DNA of 64,000 nt from Gynurincola endophyticus (GTDB taxonomy: Bacteria > Bacteroidota > Bacteroidia > Chitinophagales > Chitinophagaceae): the NCBI RefSeq assembly GCF_003991195.1, contig NZ_RCWL01000003.1:124001-188000 (forward strand), in the 5' to 3' direction. A program made the translations under genes and the position numbers. The notes under the pieces are model-generated. The model saw nothing but the letters and a program-made list of their open reading frames with translations. It did no database searches and had not been told where the DNA came from. Shown here piece after piece: positions 7,527-62,304 of this stretch (its first letter is position 1; the number at the start of each line of letters is the position of its first letter).

Positions 7527-10500
7527 ATGCAATCTAATTTTAGAAAACTATTCCGCCCTCTACTTTTTTTAATAGCAGTCGTACTGTTGTTAAACTTTTT
7601 TGGTTACTACCTCTTCCAACCGAACAAACAGTTTTATCATAAGATCAATCACACCATTGAAATTATTGGTGACCAAAAAGCCATTGTTAATACATTAACC
7701 GAAAACAAAGCGTTATATCTAACAGTTAGCGATTCGCTGGCGGCCTCCTACCAGAACCTGAAACAAACCATTCAGGAATTAAGCATATTGGCAAAAGACA
7801 AAAACCGTATTTTTTTATCCTCACTTTTTGAGAACTATAATGTGAGCTATAGCCAGCTGCAACATGCTCTCTCCGCAGGTACAGGCCAGGTAACCATTGC
7901 CAAAAACGCTTTCATTGTTGCTTCTGACAACCTATTGAACAATTTCAAGCTTTGGTCGGTGGAGTATTATACTTTTAATGAAATCACTCCGGGAAAGTTT
8001 ATTTCGTTATTTCTGGCAATTATTGCACTAATGTATCTGATTCTGGAACCGTTGATTCGAAATTACCGTTCAAACAAGTCGAACCTGCTGCTTACAAAAT
8101 CTGAATTACTCAAAGAAAAAGTTTATCTAAGCTCTATACTTAATTCACAAACGAACTTTATACTCCGGTTAAATGATTCATTTCAATTGAATTATGTAAA
8201 TCCGGCCTTTATCAAAAAATTTAAATATAACGCTGATAACATACATCTACTCACCTTTTACGACCTCGTTCAACCGAAAGACCTTTATCGTTGCCGTCAG
8301 ATTCTGGAAGAGTGTATCCACCGCCCGCAACAAATCTTTACGCTGAAACTGGAAATTCCGGTAGTAGGTGAAGACGAAAAACTCTGGACCAGTTGGGAGT
8401 TTATCAATTTATCATCCCCCGAAGAAAATACTTCTGAGATTCAGGTGTTAGGAATCGATATCAATGAAAAACATTATGCCGAAAAAGGAAAGGAAGAGGT
8501 ATTAAGAACAAAGACCTTCGCATTGACACATGCAAAAATGGGAAGCTGGAAGTATAATTTTCTTACCAGAGACCTTCGGCTGAGCAGAGAAATGCTAAAG
8601 GTTCTCGGTATTGATGCGCCCGGTGAACAAACCATTTCACTTGACTCGTTTTTAAATAACTATGTTCCTCAAAAATATCATCATAAAATTTTAGATGAAA
8701 TCGTTAAAGCAATTTCCTCGAAAGCTCTTGACAAAGAATCTAATTTCACTTTCGAAATCATTAATGCCCAACAACAAACCAGATGGTTTTATGTGAGCGG
8801 AAAATTGATCGACAAAACAACCGCTTTCGGTATTGCACAGGATATTACGAATCAAAAACGTTCGGCAGATGCATTAATTGAAAGCAACTTCAAATTCAAG
8901 TTACTCGCTGATAATGCTGACGATATAATCGCCATTACCAATCAGCAAGGTTTTTTTACTTATGTTTCGCCTTCCATCGAAAAAGCTTTGGGATACCAGC
9001 CCAGAGAAATACAACACGAACATTTTTCTTCGATTATTCACGTTGAAGATTTCGACAAAATCAACTGGAATAAATTAAAGAACTTTCAAAAAAATCCTGA
9101 GCCGCAAACATTGCGGTTTAAAGTATTATCAAAAAGCCAGTTTTATATCTGGTTTGAATGTATCATCAAGCCATTATTTCAGGATGGTGACATTCAGTTT
9201 ATCTGTTCTGCAAGAAATATTACCAAAAGAACAATTGTTGAAACAGAACGGGAACAACTATTAGAAGAGATTAAACAATCTGAAGAACTGTTAAGAACGG
9301 TGATTAACTCTACGCCCGACTGGATGTATATTAAAGACACCGGCCAACGCTACTTGCTGGTAAATAAATCGTACGCAGAACAGATGCAATTACCTGCAAT
9401 GGAATTTATCGGACGGACGGAGCTGGAGTTAAATCTTCCTTACATTCAAAAACATATTACACCCAACCTGATTTCTGACAACGAAGTGTTGAAAACAGGA
9501 GTGACTAAATTTACTTTAGAAGAAACTTTTCATATCGGAGAAAGGCCGTACACAATGACCACTATCCGGATACCATTGTTTTCAGCAGACAAATCTATCT
9601 GGGGCGTTTTGTGTATCGCCCATAATATTTCTGAAATTAAAGAGGCGCAACACAAACTTTTGTATAAAGACAAACTTTTACAAGCCGTTGCAGACGCAAC
9701 CTATGAACTCATCCGGAACGCAGACCTTGATACCGCTTTAAAAACAGCCGTTTCTAAACTGGGGGCGCAGCTAAACATTGCCAACATCGGCGTTTATTCA
9801 TTCAATCATTCGGCACAATTACCCAATGATTCAACAAAATGTATCCTTAACTGGAAAGGGAATCAGGTAGATCCTTTCAGCAGAGACGAGGCCATTCCCT
9901 TACTCACAGTTTCACCGGTTTACAAAACGCTGGAGCAAAAAAAGTTTTTTACCGGAAGATGTAACACAATCAGTGATCCTATTGTAAAGAACTATCTTAC
10001 TCAAAATCATATTGAAACCGTTACATTCATGCCGCTGTTTGTAATGAATGAACTATGGGGATTTGTCAGCTTCACCAACAAAGAAAATATCGGCTGGAGC
10101 AATACTGAAATCTCCATTTTGCAATCATTCACAGAAAGTATTGCCGCATCCGTCGAACGGAAAAATGTAGAAAAGCAATTAATAGATGCAAAGAATAATG
10201 CAGAACTGGCCAATACGGTAAAATCGTCTTTTCTGGCAAACACCACACATGAGCTTAAATCTCCTTTAAATAGTATTATCGGTTTTACAGACCTCGTGAT
10301 AAAGAGCGATGTGAATAAGAGTCAAAAGGAGTTTTTACAGAATGTAAAGAAGTCGGCCACAGATCTTCAGCAAATGATTAACAATATTCTCGATTATTCT
10401 AATCTTGAATCAGGTACGCTTGCGCTCAAAGCAGAAAGCTTTATGCTGGAAGACTTTATGACCGATGTTTTTGACATTTACCAACTACACGCTTTAGATA

Positions 10501-50512: not shown

Positions 50513-50530
50513 ATGTTCCACGTGAAACAT
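50513..50530. promoter_or_regulatory. parS site 2, exact canonical match (TGTTCCACGTGAAACA)
   Basis: TGTTCCACGTGAAACA at 50514-50529 is identical to the well-known bacterial parS sequence bound by ParB/Spo0J. It is the best of the three sites. Confidence 0.92.
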
Positions 50531-50639: not shown

Positions 50640-52499
50640 ATGTTTTTAAATTATGATATTATAGTAGTAGGGGCCGGCCATGCTGGATGTGAAGCAGCAG
50701 CAGCAGCAGCAAACATGGGATCTACAGTTTTATTGATCACCATGAATATGCAAACCCTTGCACAGATGAGCTGTAACCCGGCAATGGGAGGAATTGCTAA
50801 AGGACAAATTGTGAGAGAAATAGATGCCCTGGGCGGATATTCTGGTATCGTTACCGATAAAAGCATGATCCAATTCAGAATGCTGAATAGGAGTAAAGGC
50901 CCTGCCATGTGGAGCCCAAGAGCACAAAGTGACAGAATGTTGTTTGCAGCTACCTGGAGAGAAATGCTGGAAGCAACACCTAATGTAGACTTCTATCAGG
51001 ATATGGTGAAAGAAATGATCATTAAAGATGGAAAAGCTTGTGGTGTTGTTACCGGGCTAGGACATGAAATCAGATCAAAATCAGTGATCGTAACCTCCGG
51101 TACTTTCTTAAATGGTGTAATTCATATAGGAGAAAAGAGATTGGGAGGAGGAAGAATTTCAGAAAAAGCTGCTACAGGAATCACCGAACAATTAGTAACC
51201 TTAGGTTTTGAAGCCGATCGCTTAAAAACTGGTACCCCTCCGAGAGTAGATGGAAGATCACTCGATTACTCAAAAATGGAGGAACAACCGGGTGATGAAG
51301 AAATTATAGGCTTCTCTTATATGCCGGTACAAAAACCTACCAAACAGAGAAGTTGCTGGATTACTTACACCTCATCCGAAGTACACGAAATTTTAAAAAC
51401 AGGTTTCGATAGAAGTCCAATGTATACCGGAAGAATTGAAGGAGTAGGCCCAAGATATTGTCCTTCCATAGAAGATAAAATCAATCGCTTTGCAGAAAGA
51501 GATCGCCATCAGCTATTTGTAGAACCAGAAGGTTGGAATACACATGAAATTTATGTAAACGGATTTTCAACCTCTCTTCCTGAAGAAGTTCAGTATAAAG
51601 CACTGCGTCAGGTGAAAGGTTTTGAAAATGTAAAGTTCTTCCGCCCCGGATATGCAATCGAATATGATTACTTTCCACCTACACAATTAAAGCATAACCT
51701 CGAAACTAAACTGATAGAAAACTTATTTTTTGCAGGACAAATTAATGGAACCACCGGTTATGAAGAAGCAGGTTGCCAGGGAATCATGGCCGGAATAAAT
51801 GCTCACCTGAAAGTTAATAATAAGGAACCTTTTATTCTTAAAAGAAGTGAGGCTTATATTGGTGTGCTAATCGATGATCTGATTAGCAAAGGAACCGACG
51901 AACCTTATAGAATGTTTACTTCAAGAGCAGAATATAGAACACTACTCAGACAAGATAATGCTGATTTACGTTTAACAGAACTAAGCTTCGAAATGGGATT
52001 AGCTACTGAAGAAAGAAGAGATCTGATGCTTCGTAAAGTAGAACAAACAGAAAAAATAAAATCAACTATTAAAGAAACCAGTATTTCACCGGAAGAGGCA
52101 GCTGCTTTACTCGAAAAATATTCAACCAGTCCTCTACCACAAAAACAAAAAGCTCAGCAAATTCTTTTACGCCCGAACGTTCACTTGAAAAATATGATTA
52201 AAGAATTGCCTTCATTAAGTGACTTAAAAACATTCGATGCAGAAGCAATTGAACAGGCAGAAATACAAATCAAGTATGACGTCTATATCGAAAAGGAAAA
52301 AGAACTGGTAGATAAAATGAATCAACTGGAAGACAAACTTATTCCAGACAATTTCAATTTTGATAAAGTAGGCAGCTTATCCGCAGAGGCTTTACAAAAA
52401 TTCAAGAGAATAAGACCAAGAACGCTCGGACAAGCAGCCAGAATAAGCGGCGTAAATCCCAGCGATATTCAAATACTAATGATACATATGGGAAGATAA
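50640..52499 (+). CDS. mnmG: tRNA uridine-5-carboxymethylaminomethyl modification enzyme MnmG (GidA)
   Basis: A 619-aa FAD-dependent enzyme which with MnmE installs the cmnm5 group on U34 of certain tRNAs. FAD-binding motif GAGHAG at residues 11-16, then CNPAMGGIAKG, TGTFLNG, GGRISEKAA, LKTGTPPR and the C-terminal helical domain. It is often near the chromosome origin and parAB in bacteria, which fits the parS array just upstream. Near its start a (GCA)6 run (50694-50711) codes for six alanines. Confidence 0.96.
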   Translation: MFLNYDIIVVGAGHAGCEAAAAAANMGSTVLLITMNMQTLAQMSCNPAMGGIAKGQIVREIDALGGYSGIVTDKSMIQFRMLNRSKGPAMWSPRAQSDRMLFAATWREMLEATPNVDFYQDMVKEMIIKDGKACGVVTGLGHEIRSKSVIVTSGTFLNGVIHIGEKRLGGGRISEKAATGITEQLVTLGFEADRLKTGTPPRVDGRSLDYSKMEEQPGDEEIIGFSYMPVQKPTKQRSCWITYTSSEVHEILKTGFDRSPMYTGRIEGVGPRYCPSIEDKINRFAERDRHQLFVEPEGWNTHEIYVNGFSTSLPEEVQYKALRQVKGFENVKFFRPGYAIEYDYFPPTQLKHNLETKLIENLFFAGQINGTTGYEEAGCQGIMAGINAHLKVNNKEPFILKRSEAYIGVLIDDLISKGTDEPYRMFTSRAEYRTLLRQDNADLRLTELSFEMGLATEERRDLMLRKVEQTEKIKSTIKETSISPEEAAALLEKYSTSPLPQKQKAQQILLRPNVHLKNMIKELPSLSDLKTFDAEAIEQAEIQIKYDVYIEKEKELVDKMNQLEDKLIPDNFNFDKVGSLSAEALQKFKRIRPRTLGQAARISGVNPSDIQILMIHMGR

Positions 52500-53002: not shown

Positions 53003-53144
53003 GAAAGATAAAAGTGAATAAAAATGAACAAACTATTACGCAGTTACTAACAAACAGAAAATTATGTGAGAATGTGAAAAAAACACTCTAAATATTGTAT
53101 GTCAATAATTTAAAAACAACAAATAATTAATATATTATAAATTA

Positions 53145-53180
53145 ACATGGGTTATTAACAATAATGTGAATAACCCATGT
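53145..53180. terminator. 12-bp inverted repeat after nadA, with a DnaA-box-like loop edge
   Basis: ACATGGGTTATT and AATAACCCATGT flank a 12-nt loop, 10 bp beyond the nadA stop. It can serve as the nadA terminator, though the U-tract is poor. The right part contains TGTGAATAA (53165-53173), a minus-strand match to the DnaA-box consensus TTWTNCACA. Confidence 0.55.
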
Positions 53181-53189
53181 CAATAATCT

Positions 53190-54191
53190 TTATAATCCGA
53201 ATTGAGCACTGATATCCAACATACGTTGAATCGGCTTTAATGCAGCCAGGCGTAATTGCTCATCCATGGTAATTTCTGGAATTTCATGCTTCATACACAA
53301 GTAGAGTTTTTCTAAAGTGTTGAGTTTCATGTGTGGACAATCGTTACAGGCACAGCTGTTATCAGGAGGTGCCGGAATAAATGTTTTATCAGGTGCATTT
53401 TTCATCATTTGGTGAAGAATGCCTGTTTCTGTAGCAACGATGTAAGTATCAGCGCTATCTGCAGTAGAATATTTCAGCAGAGCTGTAGTAGATCCGATAT
53501 AATCGGCATGTTTCAGCAAAGCTTCTTCACATTCAGGGTGTGCAAGAATTTTTGCATTTGGGTATTGAGCTTTTAGCTTGAGTAATTTCTCTATGCTGAA
53601 TATTTCATGCACCATGCAGGCTCCATTCCACAAAAGCATGTTTCTACCCGTTTTTTTGTTCAAATAAGCGCCTAAATTCCTATCCGGGGCAAAGATGATC
53701 GGTTGATCATCCGGAATCGTAGAAACGATCTTTTCGGCGTTTGAGGAGGTACAGATGATATCTGACAAAGCCTTAATTCCTGCAGAGCAGTTGATATACG
53801 AAATCACCAGGTGATCAGGATGTGCTTTTTTGAAATCGGCAAACAATGCTGGTGGGGCAGAGTCTGACAACGAACAACCTGCGTTCAGGTCGGGCAATAA
53901 AACCTTTTTGTTCGGATTCAGAATCTTCGCTGTTTCAGCCATGAAATGCACACCGGCAAAAACGATGATATCGGCATCAGTTTTCTCAGCAGCCTGTGCA
54001 AGACCTAAACTATCCCCAATATAATCGGCGATGTCCTGAATATCTGCTTCCTGGTAATAGTGCGCGAGAACAATTGCATTTTTTTCTTTTTTCAATTTTT
54101 CGATCTCGGCAAACAAGTCCAAATCTGGCGACACGGGCAAATCTAAAAATCCTTTTTCAGGAACTGCATTCACTATGTTAATATCTACCAT
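53190..54191 (-). CDS. nadA: Quinolinate synthase
   Basis: A 333-aa 4Fe-4S enzyme that condenses iminoaspartate with dihydroxyacetone phosphate to make quinolinate for NAD synthesis. Likely cluster ligands are C106 (NAGCSLSD), C192 (NGACMVHE) and one of C280/C282/C285 (CACNDC). Other family motifs are [14 protein letters not shown] and ILAHPEC. nadB and nadC are not adjacent. Its 5' end borders the candidate origin. Confidence 0.95.
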
Positions 54192-54298
54192 AGTAACTAT
54201 TATATTATATATTTTTAAAAAAACTCTATTATTATTACGGCTGTGGATTAGTGGATAAATCTCAGATCCAAATATTTGGTAAAGTTACAATAACTAGT

Positions 54299-54307
54299 TT
54301 ATCCACA
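54299..54307 (+). promoter_or_regulatory. Perfect DnaA box (TTATCCACA)
   Basis: An exact TTATCCACA, followed after 1 nt by TTATCAACA (54309-54317), giving a close pair in the same orientation. Confidence 0.85.
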
Positions 54308-54363
54308 GTTATCAACATATAAATAACATACCGGAAGGCAGATTGTTAGCGGTATTTTTATGT

Positions 54364-54383
54364 TTATCCACTTCTGTGGATGA
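54364..54383. promoter_or_regulatory. Inverted pair of DnaA-like boxes
   Basis: TTATCCACT (54364-54372, plus) and TGTGGATGA (54375-54383, minus-strand TCATCCACA) face each other with a 2-nt gap. Confidence 0.65.
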
Positions 54384-54696
54384 AAAAAGCTGTATATAAA
54401 TTTGTTATTAATCCTACATTATTTTTATGTGAATCTATGTGGAATAAATAGGCAGTTATAGACAATAAAAATCTGACCGGTACGTTTCTCCAAAATTACT
54501 CCCCAAATATCCACTGTCCGGAAATGTCAAAAAACTGGTTTATCCACTGTAAAACCACGTTATTCACAGAGTTATGTCAATTTTGTTTTCACGAAATGTT
54601 TCACGCAAGTCTGTGATATATAAATAATATGTGTATATTGAAAACCGAATCGAGGGAAAAGCTTGTATTTATGCAGATTATGCTGGTTTTCCACAA

Positions 54697-54727
54697 TTTG
54701 TTAATATCCATTTTTACCCTATTTTTG
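54697..54727 (+). promoter_or_regulatory. Textbook Bacteroidota promoter for the foldase gene
   Basis: TTTG (54697-54700), 19-nt spacer, TATTTTTG (54720-54727), exactly the TTTG-N19-TANNTTTG arrangement. The start of transcription would be near 54730, about 32 nt before the ATG. The -33 element begins 2 nt after the last DnaA-like box, so DnaA binding could affect it. Confidence 0.75.
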
Positions 54728-54761
54728 CTATCCTTAAAAAACGGAAGTAATTAATTAAATT

Positions 54762-56879
54762 ATGTCAATTATTCAAACTATCCGCGATAAAGCGTGGATT
54801 ATTTTTGTCGCTATTGCAGTCGCGTTGATTGCCTTTATTGTTCAAGATGGATTTCAAGGAAGTGGTATGTTCGGTCAGGGAGATACTTCCATAGGTAAAA
54901 TCAATGGTAAATCAGTTGATTTATTCGAATTCGAACAAAAGATTAAAAATTACGAAGATAATTATCAGGCTCAGGGTTATAATGTAAATGAGCAGGTACG
55001 TCAACAAATTCGTGATGAGGTTTGGAATTCAATGATTATCGATCAGGTTTTAAATGACAGATTTAAAACATTAGGTTTCCAGGTAACCGATAATGAAGTG
55101 TATGATATATTATATGGAGCAAATCCTCCTGCACAATTAAGACAACAATTTATTGATAGTTTGGGTAACTATGATGCGCAGGCAGCTTATACTGCTATCA
55201 GATCTTTACAACCGGGAAGTCCTCAACATAAAAGTATTTATGGTGAATTCATTCCTGCTTTAAGAGAAGCAAGAATTAAAGAAAAATATGTTGCTGCTAT
55301 TGCTAACAGTGCATATGTACCAAAATGGTTAGTAGAAAAAAATAATAGTAATAATGCTCAGGTAGCAGATATCGAGTATGTAGCTGTTCCTTATACTTCT
55401 ATTGCCGATTCTACTATTAAAGTAACAGATGCTGATATCAAAGCATATCTGGAAAAAAATAAAGATTTATATAAACAAGAAGCTACAAGAAGTATTGAGT
55501 ATGTAGTTTTCGATGCCTCTCCGAACGCACAGGATACAGCTTCTTTAGTACAGGCTTTCGAGCAAAGAAAAGAAGCATTTAAAAATGCTCCGGATGTGAA
55601 TCAATATGTTTCTTTAGAAAATAGTGAATCACAATATTATGATGGTATCATCAGCCGCAAGGAAATTAAAATTGTAAATTTTGATGATATTGCTTCTACT
55701 GAAGTAGGTGAAGTTTACGGACCATACATCGACGGCGGTCACGTATCTTTAGCCAGAATGGTAGAGAAAAAAGTAATTCCTGACACAGTTAAAGTTCGTC
55801 ATATATTAATTGCAACAAATCAAAGAGACCAGGCTGGAAACATGTATCCGGTTAGAGCTGATAACGATGCAAAAGAATTAGCCGATTCTATTGCCGATGC
55901 AATTAAAAAAGGATCTTCTTTCACAGCATTATGCGAACAGTTTTCTGATGATCAGTCATCTATCGCAAATGGTGGAGAATATGATAAAATTGTTACAGGT
56001 AGCATGATGCCTGAGTTCAATGATTTTATCTTTAAAAATGCTACCGGAGCAAAAGGTGTGGTAAAAACAGACTTTGGTTATCACTATGTTGAAATTTTAT
56101 CACAAAAAGGAAATGGTACCGGTTATAAAGTAGCTTATTTCACACAGTCTATTTCTCCTTCTGACAGAACCATCAATGCTGCTCAGATAGCTGCATCTAC
56201 CTTTGCTGCAGGTATTAAAAATTACGACCAGTTTGTTGAGAAAGCAAAATCTCAGAATCTGAACAGATTCACTGCTACCGATATTAAAAACTTAGATGCA
56301 AATATCTATGGCATCGGTAATAGCCGCGAATTGGTAAAATGGATTTACAATGATGCTTCTGTAGGTGAAGTTTCTAATACTTCATTTAACGTTGGAAATA
56401 AATATATTGTTCCTGTAGTAACAGGCGACTATAAAGAAGGATTAATGGATGTGAAAAAAGCACGTGCATTAGTTGAATTCAAAGTAAGAAATGAGAAGAA
56501 AGCTGAGAAAATCGTAAATGATGCTAAAAACCAGGCTGACCTGCAGTCAATTGCTGAAGCAACCGGTCAATTAGTATTAGTAGCTGATAGTGTAAGCTTT
56601 AGTAACCCTTACGTATCAAACGTAGGACAAGAGCAAAAATTCATTGGTAGTGCTTTCAACCCGGCCAATAAAGAAAAAGTTTCTGCACCAATTGTAGGTG
56701 AACAAGGTGTTTATTTTGTAAAAGTAAAAGACATCAAGGCAGTAACTACTATTCCAACTCCGGTTGAAGAAGCTCAAAAGTCGATGATTGCACAACAAAA
56801 ATCTATGATCGGATACAGATTATTTGATATCATTCAAAAATCTGCCGATGTAAAAGATAGTCGTAGCAAATTCTATTAG
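54762..56879 (+). CDS. PpiD/SurA-type membrane-anchored peptidyl-prolyl isomerase
   Basis: A 705-aa periplasmic folding factor. One N-terminal helix (residues about 11-27) anchors it, followed by a SurA_N/PpiD-like chaperone domain and a parvulin domain at about 342-440 (VKVRHILIAT, CEQFSDD, GGEYDKIVTGSMMPEF). A further 250 residues may hold a second, degenerate parvulin fold. It is probably an inner-membrane foldase for exported proteins. It is a single gene with a strong promoter and terminator, directly beside the candidate origin. Confidence 0.9.
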   Translation: MSIIQTIRDKAWIIFVAIAVALIAFIVQDGFQGSGMFGQGDTSIGKINGKSVDLFEFEQKIKNYEDNYQAQGYNVNEQVRQQIRDEVWNSMIIDQVLNDRFKTLGFQVTDNEVYDILYGANPPAQLRQQFIDSLGNYDAQAAYTAIRSLQPGSPQHKSIYGEFIPALREARIKEKYVAAIANSAYVPKWLVEKNNSNNAQVADIEYVAVPYTSIADSTIKVTDADIKAYLEKNKDLYKQEATRSIEYVVFDASPNAQDTASLVQAFEQRKEAFKNAPDVNQYVSLENSESQYYDGIISRKEIKIVNFDDIASTEVGEVYGPYIDGGHVSLARMVEKKVIPDTVKVRHILIATNQRDQAGNMYPVRADNDAKELADSIADAIKKGSSFTALCEQFSDDQSSIANGGEYDKIVTGSMMPEFNDFIFKNATGAKGVVKTDFGYHYVEILSQKGNGTGYKVAYFTQSISPSDRTINAAQIAASTFAAGIKNYDQFVEKAKSQNLNRFTATDIKNLDANIYGIGNSRELVKWIYNDASVGEVSNTSFNVGNKYIVPVVTGDYKEGLMDVKKARALVEFKVRNEKKAEKIVNDAKNQADLQSIAEATGQLVLVADSVSFSNPYVSNVGQEQKFIGSAFNPANKEKVSAPIVGEQGVYFVKVKDIKAVTTIPTPVEEAQKSMIAQQKSMIGYRLFDIIQKSADVKDSRSKFY

Positions 56880-60591: not shown

Positions 60592-61707
60592 TTAATTATT
60601 TAACATTAACGGCATAACCAGCATTAACATTTCTTCATATTCATCCTGTTCTGTAGGTTTGATGATACCTGCTTTTGTAGAAGTAGAAAGTTCTACTACT
60701 ATTTCGTCAGATTCTGCAGCGTTCAACATTTCTATCAAAAATTTAGCATTGAAAGCAATCTGTAAATCTTCACCATTGTAAGAACATTTCATACGCTCGT
60801 TACCTTCAAATGAAAAATCTACATCCTGCGCAGCCAGCTGTAATTCAGAGCCACTGATATTTAAAACTACCTGATTGGTACTTTTGTTTGAGAAAACAGA
60901 TACGCGACGTAAAGCTCCCTGGAAATCAGACTTTTGTAGAGTCAGTTTATAAGGGTTGTCAACCGGAATCACCACTTTATAATCAGGGAAACGGGCATCA
61001 ATCAAGCGACAGCTCATTTGAGTGGTTCCGTGTTTTACAAATAAGTGGTTAGTGTTATAACTAACAGTGATTTCGTCCTGATTATCAGGTAAAGCGCCTT
61101 TCAGAATGTTCAACGGTTTGCGCGGAACAATCATTGAATCGTTTTTAGGGCATTTTACATCACTGCGTTTGTAACGAACCAAACGGTGGGCGTCTGTAGC
61201 TACAAATTGCAGATATTCAGTGTTCATTTCAAAAAAAACACCGGTCATTGCAGGACGTAAATCATCGGTGCTCACCGCAAAAATTGTTTTATTTACAGCT
61301 GTAATTAAAGCACTGGAAGTCATTGTGAAAGAGCTGGTATCATCAGCTACCGGTTCTTTCGGGAAGTGGTCAGGGTTTTCGCCCATCACTTTATACTTAC
61401 CGTTGTCGCTGGTAATTTCTACTCCGTAACTTTTATCAATGCTAAAAGTGAGCGGTTGCTCTGGAATATTTTTTAAAGAATCAATCAAAATTTTTGCAGG
61501 GATACATACTCTACCAGTTTCTTTAGCTTCAACTTCAAGCTGCACTTTCATCACAGTTTCTAAGTCGGTAGCCACTACCGTCAGCTTATTTGTATCTACC
61601 TCAAAAAGGAAATCTTCTAAAATGGGCAATACAGTGTTAGCATTAATTACTCCACTAATCTGTTGTAATTGTTTTAATAATGTCGAAGAGGAAACGATGA
61701 ATTTCAT
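60592..61707 (-). CDS. dnaN: DNA polymerase III beta subunit (sliding clamp)
   Basis: A 371-aa clamp protein with three repeated domains (start MKFIVSSSTLLKQLQQISGVI; LPILEDFLFE; TDAHRLVRYK near residue 176; ALRRVSVFSNK; C-terminal MLVMPLMLN). It is single, with its own terminator, and not next to dnaA or recF, unlike the classic dnaA-dnaN-recF order. It is divergent from recX. A TATATTTG box (minus strand 61735-61728) ends 20 nt before the ATG. Confidence 0.97.
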   Translation of the reverse strand: MKFIVSSSTLLKQLQQISGVINANTVLPILEDFLFEVDTNKLTVVATDLETVMKVQLEVEAKETGRVCIPAKILIDSLKNIPEQPLTFSIDKSYGVEITSDNGKYKVMGENPDHFPKEPVADDTSSFTMTSSALITAVNKTIFAVSTDDLRPAMTGVFFEMNTEYLQFVATDAHRLVRYKRSDVKCPKNDSMIVPRKPLNILKGALPDNQDEITVSYNTNHLFVKHGTTQMSCRLIDARFPDYKVVIPVDNPYKLTLQKSDFQGALRRVSVFSNKSTNQVVLNISGSELQLAAQDVDFSFEGNERMKCSYNGEDLQIAFNAKFLIEMLNAAESDEIVVELSTSTKAGIIKPTEQDEYEEMLMLVMPLMLNN

Positions 61708-61827: not shown

Positions 61828-62304
61828 ATGTTATATAAAAAGAGATTTACTCCCGAACAGGCCCTCCAGAAGCTAAAACATTACTGCGCCTACCAGGAAA
61901 GAAGCCATGCGGAAGTGAAAGAAAAGCTTTACCAGTACGGTGTTTTCAGCAATGATGTGGATAATATCATTGCTACTCTTATTGAGGAAAACTATTTGAA
62001 CGAGGAGCGTTTTGCAAAAGCTTTTGTAAGAGGGAAGTTTCGTATGAAACAGTGGGGCAAGGTAAAAATTATGCATGCTCTCAAGCAAAAACAGGTTTCT
62101 ACCTACAATCTGAAACAGGCAATGCTTGAAATTGACAATGATGAATACGCGAAAGTGCTGGCTTCTTTGGCAAAAAAGAAGTGGGATTCCATCAAGGGGG
62201 AAGGAGTAAACAGGTTTGTAAAAATGAGCAAAACAATGGATTATCTCATACAAAAGGGATTTGAAAGAAATCTTATCCAGGATGCAATGAAATTACTTGA
62301 GTAG
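61828..62304 (+). CDS. recX: Regulatory protein RecX
   Basis: A 158-aa RecX-family protein made of tandem three-helix repeats (YCAYQERSHAEVKEKLYQYG; NYLNEERFAKAFVRGKFRMK; QWGKVKIMHALKQK). RecX modulates RecA filaments. recA is not here. It is divergent from dnaN (120-bp gap) and convergent with the M28 peptidase gene. Confidence 0.92.
   Translation: MLYKKRFTPEQALQKLKHYCAYQERSHAEVKEKLYQYGVFSNDVDNIIATLIEENYLNEERFAKAFVRGKFRMKQWGKVKIMHALKQKQVSTYNLKQAMLEIDNDEYAKVLASLAKKKWDSIKGEGVNRFVKMSKTMDYLIQKGFERNLIQDAMKLLE

Follow-up and report, generated by a model that had tools for sequence, protein, structure and literature searches.

A probable chromosomal replication origin between nadA and a foldase gene in Gynurincola endophyticus, with a core sequence that recurs in Chitinophagaceae

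The gap that separates nadA from a SurA/PpiC-type foldase gene is very probably the chromosomal replication origin, oriC, of Gynurincola endophyticus (probability about 0.93). The gap lies in a 64,000-nucleotide stretch of the draft genome (NZ_RCWL01000003.1, positions 124,001 to 188,000), which is called the window throughout and supplies the coordinates below unless a contig or locus is named. What the analysis shows is the cluster of DnaA boxes, the weak duplex, the order of the parts, their conservation and a change in GC skew; DnaA binding, opening and initiation would follow from established oriC biology. A first-pass annotation of the window had proposed a probable oriC at this place. 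The present analysis supports that proposal and adds a core sequence found in 33 of 36 genomes of the family, three of them without an adjacent nadA.

Results

Nine DnaA boxes cluster in the gap

Nine 9-mers in the gap match TTATCCACA with at most one mismatch, one of them perfectly, and together span 454 bp (54242-54695). The boxes start at 54242, 54250, 54299 (perfect), 54309, 54364, 54375, 54540, 54560 and 54687, and the first eight fall into four pairs with start spacings of 8, 10, 11 and 20. The gap (54192-54761) contains no ORF longer than 41 aa, and it thus has the DnaA-box cluster in a gene-free stretch that is used to recognize an oriC. This recount reproduces the first-pass description of nine near-consensus boxes, one perfect, arranged as close pairs within about 455 bp of DNA that holds no gene. 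The coordinates of the features are collected in Table 1.

Table 1. Features of the proposed origin and its surroundings (window coordinates)
Feature	Position	Strand	Remark
Intergenic gap taken as oriC	54192..54761	.	570 bp, nine DnaA-box matches, no ORF >41 aa
A/T-only run, proposed DNA unwinding element	54198..54223	.	26 bp, window's least stable 40-mer starts at 54198
Four NAT trinucleotides (3' to 5' from the boxes), DnaA-trio-like array	54227..54238	+	conserved in relatives
GGC spacer	54239..54241	.	
Two DnaA boxes, 54242-54250 and 54250-54258	54242..54258	-	one-base overlap
DnaA box pair	54299..54317	+	first box perfect
DnaA box pair, face to face	54364..54383	.	54364 +, 54375 -
DnaA box pair	54540..54568	+	
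Ninth box, TTTTCCACA	54687..54695	+	within conserved block upstream of foldase
nadA, flanking gene	53190..54191	-	PF02445
SurA/PpiC-type foldase gene, flanking	54762..56879	+	PF13623, PF13616
mnmG, marker gene of origin region	50640..52499	+	PF01134
dnaN	60592-61707		Pfam
parS-like 16-mer	50514..50529	.	one mismatch to consensus

The whole window holds 26 box matches at this threshold. Genome-wide, 1253 matches in 4,525,614 bp were counted against 1255 for a control in which the pattern was read backwards, so the DnaA-box motif is without genome-wide enrichment. A scan of box density, which the annotation had proposed as a check, sets the nine boxes of the gap against 0.126 expected per 455 bp at the genome's own density (Poisson P(≥9) ~2e-14). 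One thousand shuffles of the gap gave a mean of 0.17 boxes and a maximum of 2. No Rfam match reached the gathering score in the window. The genome has 30 perfect boxes, and the other close pairs that they form, C30:21187/21197 and C32:23298/23363, have no third box within 500 bp and were dismissed as rival clusters, each being an isolated pair. The window's only other perfect box (61956) is inside a small ORF (61828-62304) that adjoins dnaN.

Dense box clusters can also titrate DnaA, and the gap might on that account be a secondary locus that titrates or regulates DnaA, with the origin elsewhere. This is extremely unlikely, as the sampled stretches of the own genome contain no second cluster of more than three boxes per 500 bp, and the unwinding-type core, the skew change and the single strong core site per genome described below argue against it.

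The nadA-proximal end of the gap has the order of an unwinding core

From the nadA side, the core consists of the A/T-only run, TATTATTATTAC (54227-54238), GGC and the two overlapping minus-strand boxes. The A/T-only run is the longest of the seven runs of at least 18 bases in the window, exceeding the run at 53121 by one base only, and nearest-neighbour energies rank the 40-mer at 54198 as the least stable of the window's 63,961. The easily melted A/T-rich element expected beside the boxes of an oriC is therefore present, and it corresponds to the A/T-only stretch that the annotation had pointed out. The next separate 40-mer in order of instability starts at 53105, in the gap at the opposite end of nadA; this region (53105-53165) also has a 25-bp A/T-only run and, at 53165, a single DnaA-box match.

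On the plus strand, bases 54227-54238 resolve into four NAT trinucleotides when followed from the boxes in the 3' to 5' direction. Trios of this polarity and order are known from the basal unwinding system (BUS), which occurs in Bacillus subtilis and others (PMC8287927, PMC8235120) and calls for three or more 3'-NAN-5' trios no farther than 16 bp from a box; here, four NAT trios start 3 bp away. The BUS of PMC8287927 shares with this core the two DnaA boxes, the short GC spacer, the trinucleotide array with a middle A in the right polarity and the A/T-rich duplex beyond. It differs in that the trios here are TAT or CAT and not the common GAT, a box-proximal GAT occurring in some relatives.

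The loose published trio rule (three NAN and a box with up to two mismatches) carries little weight because it has 114 matches in the window against 96 for a control with T in the middle. A strict core rule (four NAT, a box with at most one mismatch and a second box behind it) has a single match in the window, at the core. When four NAT and a box with up to two mismatches are required and the second box is not, the window has three matches, two of which are the core boxes, and 798,857 bases of own-genome stretches also have three, one of them in the overlap between L011 and the window. Positions 54198-54258, at the nadA end of the gap, are the likely unwinding core.

One strong core site is found in most family genomes

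A sequence-only core model, R1, was built from 23 genomes and used to search 59, 36 of them from the family. The invariance of the repeats in R1 is partly selection, 21 of the 23 genomes having been picked by a pattern that requires them. The E-values are rough, and filters were stricter above 40 genomes, with the loss of some weak matches. The search returned one strong match (E ≤2.6e-4) in 33 of 36 family genomes, including 10 of the 13 that were left out of model building, and every second match had E >0.005. These genomes thus show the single conserved site per chromosome expected of an oriC. No R1 match was obtained in G011 and G029 (630 contigs), and the match in G019 is weak (0.048); it lies at a distance of 3 kb from mnmG, and the foldase begins 0.4 kb downstream of it.

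Of the 23 genomes from outside the family, 3 had a match below 0.001. Among the best 80 of 575 named nadA loci, 26 had a core below E 1e-4, whose end precedes the extrapolated nadA start by about 20-160 bp. The inspected part of an alignment of 16 gaps shows the trio-GC-box block as the most conserved by eye, besides the foldase upstream block.

Two further forms of the core were observed. A second, weaker match lies opposite the first across a common A/T-rich centre at G001:C11:63383-63465 (L254 about 9983-10065), and similar head-to-head second matches occur in L112 (2452-2539), L064 (4930-5016) and G005:C204:1814-1896; the unwinding module seems as if doubled head to head in these places. 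Upstream of nadA in L084, L087, L101, L102 and L123 (Pedobacter, Olivibacter, Sphingobacterium), an A/T run, TTTATTAG and a box-like sequence were recognized by eye, with no R1 match reported for the block in these five loci. The block is perhaps the Sphingobacteriaceae form of the core.

Boxes follow nadA in several relatives, and the core also occurs without it

A foldase search of 59 genomes, the own genome included, was successful in 58 and returned 30 loci, 29 of them from relatives. The divergent nadA-foldase pair is kept in 20 of the 29. These 20 paired gaps contain 82 boxes (1 to 7 per gap) compared to 7 for the reversed pattern, with low counts in L028 (1) and in L030 and L045 (2), and the nine loci without nadA contain 7 compared to 2. 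Where nadA lies elsewhere, the 900 bp upstream of it hold 12 boxes in G017, 6 in G020 and G021, 5 in G026, 3 in G003 and G018, 2 in G037 and 1 in G001; no nadA was matched in G016. A search for related loci with the foldase returned no relative, and nadA served as the query instead. Its nearest named relatives are Chitinophaga and Ilyomonas (78% and 77% identity), from which a placement close to Chitinophagaceae is deduced. Among the best 80 of 575 named nadA loci, box counts were 3-8 in Chitinophaga, 4-6 in Niastella, Ilyomonas and Hydrotalea, 7 in two Sphingobacterium, 0-3 in Pedobacter, 0-1 in Saprospiraceae and 0-2 in cyanobacteria. In L264 (G030:C1:1072701-1092700), a 20-kb stretch centred on the core has 25 box matches, many of them beyond the core gap, and the core stretch of G017 has 24.

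The foldase gene has a conserved upstream block of its own. The block TTTCCACAATTTGTT ... TATTTTTG at 54687-54735, which resembles the promoter type of this phylum, precedes most of the foldase genes in the alignment of 16. A displaced foldase in L029 still has the block upstream, and those in L043 and L048 have part of it; the TATTTTTG part is more widely retained. A DnaA box seems to be built into a promoter-like element, and the ninth box (54687) may belong to the foldase promoter rather than to the origin.

A gap that separates two divergent genes, in a pair conserved this often, could be nothing but a divergent regulatory region that carries the nadA and foldase promoters, with DnaA acting at the boxes as a transcription factor. 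The foldase-promoter-like block and its partial retention upstream of displaced foldase genes fit this explanation, as do the boxes that accompany nadA in several genomes whose foldase is elsewhere. It fails, however, for cores that have other neighbours. In G001 and G030, the core is flanked by an ABC-transporter ATPase gene and the gene of a hydrolase-like protein (both identified by eye from translations), 5.4 and 3.8 kb from mnmG, respectively, and the surrounding 20 kb contain no nadA match. The distance from the core is 383 kb for nadA and 45 kb for the foldase in G001, and 250 kb for the foldase in G030. The core of G016, a genome without a nadA match, is 3.8 kb from mnmG, and the foldase follows it after 0.4 kb. 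Box counts around the core are low, at most 3 per 500 bp in G001 and 2 in G016, which complicates the picture. The core without a neighbouring nadA in these three genomes is therefore not simply a nadA promoter, and their gene contexts tie it to a chromosomal neighbourhood and not to nadA or the foldase. A regulatory region also leaves the skew change and the proximity of mnmG unexplained. On these three grounds it was rejected as the main explanation and is considered very unlikely.

Origin-region markers and GC skew around the gap

The annotation had named mnmG, dnaN and parS as neighbours. Pfam places both genes in the window. The parS claim holds insofar as a parS-like 16-mer is present at 50514, but it has one mismatch to the parS consensus. 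Genome-wide, parS-like sequences were found at two places with one mismatch and two with two mismatches, and a control pattern was found at one place. In 30 of the 33 genomes with a strong core, mnmG is on the same contig at a distance of 1.0 to 37 kb; it is on a different contig in the other three.

GC skew was read in ten-kb bins over 380 kb of contig C23 (543,053 bp), which carries the box cluster at 178.2 kb. The skew is negative in 12 of 14 bins at 1-140 kb, mixed in the four at 140-180 kb and positive in 18 of the 20 sampled beyond. It turns from negative to positive around 178 kb, with a flat minimum that locates the origin only within tens of kb. Sampling covered 8 of the 32 contigs, the remaining 24 totalling about 0.98 Mb, and only C23 had a negative-to-positive change. 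The 20 stretches from the seven other contigs were positive in 7 of 7 cases on C1 and nine of nine on C28-C32, and negative in 3 of 4 on C12.

The skew of relatives was sampled in 20 stretches each of the single-contig genomes G004, G017 and G021; its sign change at the matching core is clear in the latter two. In G021 (core at 0.640 Mb), it is negative in 5/5 stretches before the core, positive in 10/11 at 0.63-2.06 Mb and negative in 4/4 after. In G017 (core at 2.376 Mb), it is negative in 9/9 at 0.5-2.28 Mb and positive in 6/7 at 2.5-4.2 Mb; the core-containing stretch has -0.049, and the values at 0, 0.25 and 4.6 Mb are -0.120, +0.012 and -0.023. G004 (core at 3.711 Mb) has the same direction, very weakly, with no value above 0.048 in size. 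On the 1.44-Mb contig of G030 (core at 1.083 Mb), the skew is negative in four stretches at 0.70-1.02 Mb, positive at 1.15 and 1.25 Mb and +0.002 at 0.55 Mb. That of G001 is flat except in the 20 kb that contain the core. For G004, G017 and G021, the densest 500 bp among the 20 stretches lies at the core, with 12 boxes in G017 (next 5), 6 in G021 (3) and 5 in G004 (2).

The origin of a bacterium usually adjoins dnaA according to the excerpted text of PMC10225481. The same text treats this adjacency as common and not as a defining requirement, and origins are not always near dnaA (PMC10225481, PMC6323995). In G. endophyticus, dnaA is not adjacent to the gap but on another contig (C1:736039). 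The surrounding 20 kb have 3 scattered boxes and no box cluster, and all seven C1 stretches have positive skew. Of the 36 family genomes, 33 yielded a dnaA match; four of these have it on the contig of the core, at a distance of 1.8-1.9 Mb (G004, G017 and G021) or 0.4 Mb (G013). An origin beside dnaA was rejected because the sampled C1 stretches have neither a box cluster nor a skew change, and it retains next to no probability. The annotation had held that a skew minimum and a denser box cluster elsewhere, such as beside dnaA, would speak against an origin in the gap; neither was encountered in the sampled stretches.

Discussion

The oriC of Escherichia coli has a box cluster that is bordered on one side by the unwinding element, and mnmG (gidA) is among its neighbours. 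The gap described here resembles it in all three respects and differs in its neighbouring genes. By analogy with established oriC biology, DnaA would occupy the box cluster and, from the overlapping boxes at 54242-54258, would assemble onto the plus strand of the trinucleotide array at 54227-54238. This assembly would open the A/T-only run next to nadA (54198-54223), where the helicase would be loaded and two forks would start.

An oriC by mnmG is already published for Flavobacteriaceae, and the kind of element is itself well known. Such origins were predicted with Ori-Finder 2022 in Mariniflexile litorale (PMC11278836) and Algorimicrobium (PMC12843772). In the excerpted text on M. litorale, the position of dnaA does not fit the GC skew, and the figure legend swaps the labels relative to the text (PMC11278836). 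As far as these excerpts go, both cases share with the gap the phylum and an origin region by mnmG. They belong to another family, and the likeness is one of position; mnmG is 1.7 kb from the gap here, with nadA between. The annotation had held that a location away from dnaA would characterize this lineage. The gap is indeed on another contig than dnaA, but with an oriC reported beside mnmG in two Flavobacteriaceae this is not unusual for the phylum (PMC11278836, PMC12843772). A literature search returned no paper that combines Chitinophaga, oriC and DnaA box, and nothing on Chitinophagaceae for nadA or mnmG combined with oriC; DoriC was outside the search and may hold predictions for the family.

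The odds appear about even that Chitinophagaceae share a portable core of ~45-50 bp with lineage-specific NAT trios, kept near mnmG while its flanks are exchanged, and that in a few members the core is doubled head to head and could open both ways. The present analysis places a probable replication origin in this family, and its added value is a family-level signature. This nearly single-match sequence signature finds the likely origin in draft genomes. It would allow growth estimates from coverage, a sensible rotation of assemblies and direct tests of origin opening in Bacteroidota.
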